64,000 bases of DNA from Anabaenopsis elenkinii CCIBt3563. Its GTDB lineage: Bacteria > Cyanobacteriota > Cyanobacteriia > Cyanobacteriales > Nostocaceae. Both the position numbers and the translations under genes were made by a program. The DNA is taken from the NCBI RefSeq assembly GCF_015245355.1, contig NZ_CP063311.1, positions 1,573,217 through 1,637,216 on the forward strand, given 5' to 3'. The notes beneath the pieces were generated by a model, which saw nothing but the letters and a program-made list of their open reading frames with translations, ran no database searches and was not told the origin of the DNA. Positions within the stretch are counted from its first letter, which is position 1. The number at the start of each line of letters is the position of its first letter. Positions 61,126 through 64,000 of the stretch are shown here, piece after piece.

Positions 61126-61315
61126 TAAGAGGATGTTTGATAAGTTTTCAACAGGTAATTTTTATCTTAGGGAACAGGGAACAGGGAACAGGGAACAGGG
61201 AACAGGGAACACACCACAACAATCAAATCCAGTCCCCTCCCCTTACAAGGGGAGGGTTAGGGTGGGGTAAAACAATACTTGATACACTAATCATGACTTA
61301 TCAAACATCCTCTTA
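61126..61315. mobile_element. MITE-like element, copy C of the palindromic repeat
   Basis: A 190-bp element with perfect 19-bp terminal inverted repeats: AAGAGGATGTTTGATAAGT (61127-61145) and ACTTATCAAACATCCTCTT (61296-61314). TA at each end suggests a Tc1/IS630-type TA target duplication. Inside are six GGGAACA units and the G/C-rich palindromic core shared with copies A and B. It has no coding capacity. Confidence 0.82.
61170..61211. repeat. Heptamer tandem repeat (GGGAACA)6
   Basis: Six perfect, uninterrupted GGGAACA units, a short tandemly repeated repetitive (STRR) sequence of the kind found in heterocystous cyanobacteria. It lies inside the MITE-like element. Confidence 0.95.
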
Positions 61316-61410
61316 GTATAGATTATGAAGGGCAGTTAATTTATATTAAGTATATCCTCACTCACGCCGAATATGATAAGGAGAACTGGAAAGATGACCC
61401 TTACTTTTAA
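61315..61410 (+). pseudogene. higB: 3' remnant of a HigB-like toxin gene
   Basis: Just after the MITE, an open frame reads SIDYEGQLIYIKYILTHAEY then DKENWKDDPYF and stops at 61410. The IYI(K/R)(Y/F)xxTHAEYDK pattern is the C-terminal end of HigB-family mRNA interferases. Only about 31 codons remain, without the start and most of the fold. The frame ends 17 bases inside the antitoxin gene, as expected for a higBA operon. The MITE end falls exactly where the gene is cut, and no 5' part remains on its other side. Confidence 0.8.
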
Positions 61411-61795
61411 TCGAGATAAATACAGGGAATTATTAACAGTTTATCTTCCCAAGCTGATTAAAACTGAAGCAGAAAATGAGCAAGCTTTAGCGATGGTAGA
61501 AGATTTAATGCACCGGGAGCGCACTCCTGAAGAAAATGAAGTTTATCAGTTGTTAATTATTTTAATTGAGAAGTTTGAACAAGAATATTATCAGCCTAAT
61601 CAGCAGAATAATCCTGGTTCTATGTTGTTATTTCTTTTAGAGGAATCTGATAAAAATAGAGAAGATTTAGTACCGGTTTTAGGGACAGAAGATATAGTTG
61701 ATAATATTTTGAATGGACAAGAGAAAATAAATGCAGAACAAGCGCGGAAGCTGGGAGATTTTTTTCATGTAGAATCTAGTTTATTTATGGAATAA
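61394..61795 (+). CDS. higA: HigA-like antitoxin (toxin partner truncated)
   Basis: A protein of about 133 residues from the ATG at 61394 (MTLTFNRDKYRELL), overlapping the toxin remnant by 17 bases. The N-terminal half is the helical domain of COG5499 HigA proteins (AENEQALAMVEDLMHRERTPEENE). The C-terminal half is a small helix-turn-helix region (REDLVPVLGTEDIVDNILNG...INAEQARKLGDFF). HigA binds its toxin and represses its operon. Here the toxin is reduced to a fragment, so this is an orphan antitoxin that may act on other HigB toxins or only as a DNA-binding protein. Confidence 0.85.
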   Translation: MTLTFNRDKYRELLTVYLPKLIKTEAENEQALAMVEDLMHRERTPEENEVYQLLIILIEKFEQEYYQPNQQNNPGSMLLFLLEESDKNREDLVPVLGTEDIVDNILNGQEKINAEQARKLGDFFHVESSLFME

Positions 61796-63360: not shown

Positions 63361-64000
63361 AGGACTTACGCATTGACAAAAAATATGATCTATGATATCT
63401 AGATCATGCGATCGCTATTAAGATTAGCAAAAATATGCTCACGTACAACTAAAGTAAACAGATTCCGTTGTATTTCATACCAATTGCTAATTATTTTTTC
63501 AGAGCGCATAAACTCCAACTTAACAAAAGCTTGAAGTGAACAAAAGATGTGAGTCTTAATTGCATGAGTATCCCTAACCATGAACCGACAAATTCCACAT
63601 ACTTGTTTTATGGCTCGATGAAAGGTTTCAATTCCCCAATGAGTATCATGAATTGTCATAAATTCATTTCTAGTTATATCCTCGATTCTTTCCTCATCTG
63701 GAAGATACAAAATATAGTGTCTAGAGTCTTCTTTTTTAAAGTCTTTCCTAAACAACTTTATAAATCCAAATTCTTTCAGATGAGTCCTTAATCCTTCTTC
63801 GGGAATAGCCAGAGTGCTTACTTGACAATACTTGTGTGGCTCATTTGAAACAGTTCTATTTTTTTCAATTCCGAAGAGAAAACCCAATTTCTGGTTTTTT
63901 AGGAATTTCAAATTTTCTACTCCTGAATACCAACTATCACCTGTTACAATTCTGGGTTTGACTCCCCAGCTTATTATTTCACTTACCATTTCTCTAAAAT
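63361..64000 (-). mobile_element. DDE-type IS, copy 2 (partial, cut by window edge)
   Basis: The end AGGACTTACGCATTGACAAA and the following 600 bases match the right part of IS copy 1 (18204-20421) without its nested insertion. It lies in the opposite orientation to copy 1. The other end is outside the window. Confidence 0.93.
63399..64000 (-). CDS. DDE transposase of IS copy 2 (C-terminal part)
   Basis: The last 200 or so codons of the same transposase as copy 1, with the GDSWYSG and WGIETFHRAIKQVCG motifs and identical residues wherever both copies can be compared. Without the nested IS it ends QRNLFTLVVREHIFANLNSD then RMI and a stop. The 5' part, including the region deleted in copy 1, lies beyond the window, so whether it is intact is unknown. 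Confidence 0.9.
   Translation of the reverse strand, partial: FREMVSEIISWGVKPRIVTGDSWYSGVENLKFLKNQKLGFLFGIEKNRTVSNEPHKYCQVSTLAIPEEGLRTHLKEFGFIKLFRKDFKKEDSRHYILYLPDEERIEDITRNEFMTIHDTHWGIETFHRAIKQVCGICRFMVRDTHAIKTHIFCSLQAFVKLEFMRSEKIISNWYEIQRNLFTLVVREHIFANLNSDRMI

Follow-up and report, generated by a model that had tools for sequence, protein, structure and literature searches.

The HigBA pair of Escherichia coli K-12 and Shigella (PDB 5ifg, 5ycl) is a type II toxin-antitoxin system in which the toxin gene comes first and the antitoxin gene overlaps it. Type II antitoxins also occur as orphans, which the available text of PMC7354431 treats as remnants of degraded pairs, with anti-addiction proposed for them but not demonstrated as a common use. 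For the MITEs of Anabaena sp. 90, the available part of PMC3542288 reports 147 copies, complete or partial, 15 of them within disrupted ORFs, and MITEs are described as hotspots for homologous recombination in the available part of a review (PMC10969869). The genes higA and hsd are tabulated separately in the accessible portion of PMC6211672, and the titles and abstract openings listed from an open-access library name neither a MITE-truncated higB nor a type I restriction operon with HigA in it.

The window analysed here, 64,000 nucleotides of the 4.5-Mb single-contig genome of Anabaenopsis elenkinii CCIBt3563 (G000:C1:1573217-1637216; completeness 99.9%, contamination score 5.34%), holds a clean but ordinary case of toxin-antitoxin decay: a MITE, the tail of higB and an intact higA all lie in the 786 nt between hsdR and hsdM on the plus strand (Table 1). 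HigA of the window and the intact HigB of a relative match both partners of the E. coli K-12/Shigella pair (relative's HigB against 5ifg_A, E = 2.1e-06), and the locus shares with that pair a toxin-first order and an overlapping antitoxin gene, but it lacks the toxin front and the promoter and retains only the last 31 codons of the toxin. Compared with the orphan antitoxins in the available text of PMC7354431, the window shows a likely agent of decay, the MITE at the break, and a site within a restriction operon. A sequence-only reading of the window had proposed that the MITE truncates a HigB toxin and leaves an orphan HigA; its observation stands, and its interpretation needs an added deletion and the operon context.

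Table 1. Features of the higB remnant locus and the surrounding type I restriction operon, in window coordinates
Feature	Position	Strand	Basis or remark
hsdR, type I restriction endonuclease subunit, complete, 1110 aa	57760..61092	+	NCBIfam NF008521, 1610.7 bits, residues 4-1108
Left target-site triplet TAA	61126..61128	.	MITE family duplication is 3 bp
MITE, 184 bp	61129..61312	.	Ends GAGGATGTTTGATAAG / CTTATCAAACATCCTC; GGGAACA heptamer repeats inside
Right target-site triplet TTA	61313..61315	.	Same as the empty target in higB of L035, L036 and L038, reading GTTAGTATAG
higB 3′ remnant, 31 codons plus stop, without start codon	61315..61410	+	Residues 69-99 of a relative's 99-residue HigB
AAGGAG within the higB remnant, likely higA Shine-Dalgarno	61378..61383	+	Sequence; putative function
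higA, antitoxin, 133 aa, intact	61394..61795	+	phmmer to E. coli HigA 5ifg_B, E = 4.3e-05
hsdM, type I methyltransferase subunit, complete, 477 aa	61879..63312	+	Pfam N6_Mtase 1.9e-77, HsdM_N 7.9e-10
IS701-family element, continuing past the window end (L174:116-2354)	63363..64000	-	Beyond it, hsdS without its N-terminal part

The 31-codon HigB stub adjoining the MITE was borne out, with its residues matching positions 53-73 of 74 in the Pfam HigB_toxin model (PF09907) at 30.9 bits against a cut-off of 27. The reading frame of the tail starts at 61297, inside the MITE, and contains no ATG, GTG or TTG; the window locus thus holds no complete HigB, and the stub should, from its sequence, be inert as a toxin. 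Following the suggestion to look for an intact higB without the MITE, we found that relatives have the site without an insert at L035, L036 and L038: their 99-codon higB shows GTTAGT at codons 68/69 and reads GTTAGTATAGATTAT where the window has the MITE, TTA and then GTATAGATTAT. To the left of the MITE there is no higB front, but hsdR, followed after its stop by 33 bases and TAA. An upstream part of higB elsewhere in the genome, which would have spoken against the truncation, was looked for and not found: the 68-residue N-terminal part of the relative's HigB, searched against the genome at E up to 1, matched only two other intact higB genes (51% and 34%), at C1:3256208-3256411 and C1:3317704-3317907, and PF09907 returned the same two genes and the stub, and nothing else. 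Each of these two, the other HigB genes whose existence had been asked about, lies beside its own HigA. With its antitoxin intact and the cognate higB front not found in the genome, the locus carries an orphan antitoxin. That the MITE truncates HigB holds to the extent that it sits at a codon pair intact in relatives and that the toxin is broken; the insertion alone is insufficient, and since the front is not left of the MITE, a deletion (or a collapse in the assembly) is required beyond it.

The inverted arms (61126-61145 and 61296-61315) are complementary at 20/20 positions across a spacing of 150 nt, and the 20-base inverted end described from the sequence alone is in this sense real, except that each arm takes in a target triplet as its outermost three bases, since TAA and TTA are by chance reverse complementary; the element proper is therefore that of Table 1. 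It is short, has terminal inverted repeats, occurs in many copies and encodes no transposase, as befits an IS-derived MITE, and its predicted RNA fold scores z = -4.83 against shuffles. The two triplets that flank it are unlike, and both are of TNA type. No record in the plasmid collection covers 80% of the MITE, and likewise none the region. The GGGAACA heptamers within it (61168-61210) match by themselves in other genomes, for instance G005, and the available text of PMC4692102 describes other G-rich heptamers (GGGNATC) in Nostoc.

The family is abundant, with at least 52 matches, whole or partial, in this genome, a lower bound obtained by scoring 40 of 267 first-look candidates; end-like sites with at most three mismatches number 152 + 138 (290 in total), against 0 for a reversed control pattern. 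Among the matches listed for 19 other genomes, those in the same-genus genome G001 are near-full, the best are partial in 16 genomes, and two genomes have none. For 34 copies of this genome with both ends and no end in common (drawn from 43 stretches, five of which had no end pair), the flanking triplets are equal in 23, where shuffling gives a mean of 10.2 and 0/20000 shuffles reach as high; the other 11, some of them nested or tandem, have unlike triplets. Both flanks are TNA in all 35 rows of this genome, a count that includes one row whose right end is common to another. In G001, 20 stretches gave 19 copies; two of these lack TNA on one side, and among the 17 with TNA at both flanks the triplets are equal in 14. 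A 2-bp TA duplication was considered and ruled out, the middle base agreeing across sides far above shuffles and TCA, TGA and TAT pairs being present.

Inspection of 14 transposase matches, in which some genes are represented by two pieces, yielded four IS of 902-911 bp in the same genome (L249, L250, L256 and L257) that have the ends of the MITE, a PF13340/DUF4096 transposase and matching triplets (TCA, TAA, TAT and TAA). From their ends and 3-bp duplications these four are probable parents of the MITE; a fifth candidate, L255, has unlike triplets (TTA/TAA) and a left end that is not clear-cut. Equal triplets and four IS with the same ends identify the family as MITEs that derive from an IS and duplicate 3 bp of target. 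We take it to belong to the IS1031 group of the IS5 family, with which it shares the DUF4096 transposase of elements of about 900 bp, the 3-bp duplications and the ends, the window MITE itself differing in having no transposase. Elements of the IS1031 group duplicate a TNA target. The Anabaena sp. 90 MITEs are alike in their many copies, some in disrupted ORFs, and are set apart by their description: the available text of PMC3542288 calls them type II, with no parent IS in that genome, whereas the window family has parent-like elements in its own genome. Copies in tandem or abutting occur at L005, L016 and L020, and many copies have unlike triplets; together, these two features suggest that MITEs of this genome may often recombine with one another.

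The surrounding operon is itself damaged. Past the window, hsdS starts beside the IS701 element and has lost its front of about 120-190 residues, judged from the ORFs of relatives; the leftover ORF of 359 codons begins in the central conserved region and, on its sequence, seems to retain one recognition domain. The operon thus has complete HsdR and HsdM and a truncated HsdS in place of a two-domain one. According to the available text of PMC6158711, a half HsdS that retains the first of its recognition domains is able to dimerise and function in an engineered system; here it is the second half that is left, so that the operon is weakened and not certainly dead. The best named matches of hsdM are from Nostoc and allied cyanobacteria. 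Of 109 hsdM loci (29 from other relatives and 80 from named genomes, in overlapping sets and with some loci ending at contig ends), none has HigA or HigB at E <= 1e-4. For the 80 named-genome loci (L094-L173), hsdR lies upstream in the same orientation in 74, the remaining six being dropped, and the hsdR-hsdM gap in these 74 ranges from 0 to 5191 bases with a median of 371, reaching 200 or more in 41. Pfam scanning of 50 of the 64 listed gap ORFs identified three Phd/YefM antitoxins, two PIN domains, single TIR, HEPN, Uma2, NYN and RNase III domains, and others. Unknown ORFs are also part of this gap content. The variety of genes indicates that the gap takes up cargo, of which higBA is probably one instance, and the absence of HigA and HigB from all 109 loci likewise makes higBA a probable incoming cargo. 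The higBA loci examined in relatives lie at other genomic places, and because the nearest relatives G001 and G007 have no hsdM of the window type at E <= 1e-60, the ancestral state, with higBA inside the operon, is not observed among them. An 11-base likeness of the left flank to gaps of relatives (L067/L098), seen by eye, was dropped when a short-word search at E up to 10 did not return it.

How, then, was the front of higB lost? We consider it fairly probable that two MITE insertions recombined and that the intervening piece, with the higB front, was lost. The starting point would be an E. coli K-12-type HigBA pair, higB first and overlapped by higA over 17 bases, placed between hsdR and hsdM. 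An IS1031-type MITE would have entered TTA across codons 68/69 of higB, as the empty target in relatives supports, and a second MITE in the same orientation presumably entered at TAA just 3′ of hsdR. Homologous recombination between the two would most likely have removed the front 68 codons together with the native promoter and left one MITE with unlike end triplets. The TAA/TTA mismatch is weak on its own, given that 11 of 34 copies in this genome have unlike triplets and that one triplet may have changed by point mutation. Comparison of segments of the MITE with other copies, as a sign of a hybrid, ended in ties among many copies too alike to tell apart.

The same junction would arise if the true order were hsdR, MITE, higB front, MITE, stub, higA and hsdM, and the assembly had merged the two MITEs and dropped the middle; we judge this unlikely, and under it a MITE at codons 68/69 would still interrupt higB. 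A high-copy repeat of about 190 bp would favour such a collapse, the unlike triplets of the window MITE would fit it, and there are three runs of N near other MITE copies (L002; L013; L019/L025/L190) in a genome with the contamination score given above; the hsdS gene with its front gone at the IS701 element is a similar sign nearby. Against it, the window is free of N, the genome is one contig with a high completeness score, and the dropped piece of higB is found nowhere in it. The N runs themselves may be either scaffold gaps or masked stretches. Deletions beside transposable elements are well known, and a single MITE insertion, after which DNA was deleted on one side from its left end into the hsdR-hsdM gap, by adjacent deletion or slippage, would need the fewest insertions; it is nonetheless quite improbable in our estimate, as a TNA-type triplet stands at the exact left end of the MITE, which a blind deletion would produce only by chance. 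Simple insertion of a MITE is ruled out, as it would leave the higB front on the left of the MITE, where hsdR sits instead.

Recombination or not, the outcome is no isolated one. In 60 related genomes PF09907 has 118 matches, of which 89 are full, 21 lack the 5′ part, 4 lack the 3′ part and 4 are middle pieces, and a HigA match follows 77 of the 89 full and 17 of the 21 front-truncated HigB. A finer HigB model applied to the surroundings of the 20 further front-truncated loci, the window set aside, recovered the front nearby in two and did not find it in 18, L288 giving only a chance-level match; with the window included, the front was not found nearby in 19 of 21. At L296 it lies in another frame. 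At L298 (975-1456), which with the window locus was inspected for mobile elements at the breakpoint, the halves of a split higB flank a near-palindromic insert with arms (1181-1265 and 1271-1355) that are 72% complementary, as a simple insertion should look from its sequence. These counts suggest that a higB with its front gone and a HigA behind it is frequent in these cyanobacteria. Among 150 listed HigA matches, at least 55 are not preceded by a HigB match, in a search by a single query that misses distant HigA. The generalization that the toxin is lost and the antitoxin kept is therefore supported in part: 5′ truncation outnumbers 3′ truncation by 21 to 4, with HigA behind 17 of the 21, but the HigB profile is best conserved at its end, so that C-terminal stubs are easier to detect than N-terminal ones. 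Moreover, the likely ribosome-binding site of higA lies within the stub, which gives a dull reason for the survival of the tail, and HigA is no better kept behind truncated HigB: a HigA that carries no stop and is nearly complete (beginning no later than residue 15 and reaching at least residue 121) follows 12 of 17 truncated HigB, window included, and 64 of 77 full ones.

The antitoxin gene of the window is complete, its product 86% identical to the same-genus HigA, and the described 17-base overlap with higB follows from the gene coordinates (61394-61410). HigA has no Pfam match above cut-off (Cmr1_C only, E = 0.14) and no NCBIfam match. The AAGGAG motif lies ten bases 5′ of its start, so that higA would have retained its likely ribosome-binding site within the stub. 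Transcription of higA from the MITE, which the sequence-only reading proposed to check, finds no backing in sequence prediction: between 61000 and 61950 there is no promoter-like site on the plus strand, and a MITE promoter for higA was set aside, since the three sites found, against 3.4 in shuffles, are all on the minus strand. In the same interval no terminator-like site was found, against 0.6 in shuffles. If higA is transcribed at all, this would probably be by read-through from hsdR.

The orphan might owe its retention to selection, acting either against an outside HigB (anti-addiction) or in the regulation of the hsd operon by DNA binding; we hold either role to be improbable. HigA remains readable behind most truncated HigB, as counted above, which would favour selection were it not that orphans are no better preserved than HigA behind full HigB. 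Between the window and the same-genus G001, higA has dN 0.063 and dS 0.289, and the whole-gene dN/dS of about 0.22 also covers evolution that preceded the break; the branch leading to the window has 5 nonsynonymous and 4 synonymous changes (9 and 4 on that of G001, with 16 ambiguous sites excluded from each), with no sign of constraint since the break. Branch-specific selection could not be upheld in any case, the changes being too few, the ambiguous sites 16 and the assumed tree, with the window next to G001, unsure because NG86 dS to L036 (0.257) is smaller than to L035 (0.289). Three HigA that lack an intact HigB immediately follow hsdS (L317:4990-5403, L318:5023-5436 and L327:5004-5453), but hsd genes occur near 3 of 40 HigA without intact HigB and near 1 of 40 with it, an association that is not significant (Fisher p = 0.62) in stretches of about 10 kb around 40 hand-picked of 72 HigA without and 40 of 77 with intact HigB, the window not being counted. 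In L317 and L318, which look like one arrangement in two genomes, a same-frame remnant 5′ of higA ends in NEPYF, like a HigB tail. We consider very improbable the further idea that beheaded higBA loci are repeatedly captured by cyanobacterial type I operons, with HigA recruited as a DNA-binding regulator, or as an antidote by which the host of the operon would withstand HigB-carrying elements, and the HigB tail retained as the leader of higA. Neither orphan versus paired preservation, nor the branch counts, nor the hsd association gives a sign of a selected role for the orphan. Passive retention would suffice, no selection being needed to explain the persistence of higA, and the retention of HigA may indeed be passive; the orphan is probably a lingering gene that is read through from hsdR.

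The locus offers a clear view of the death of a toxin-antitoxin pair, in which the mobile element is known, its target is placed to the base, the empty site survives in relatives and the antitoxin is left. The repeated front-truncated higB loci form a natural set on which to test if selection maintains orphan antitoxins or they simply persist.
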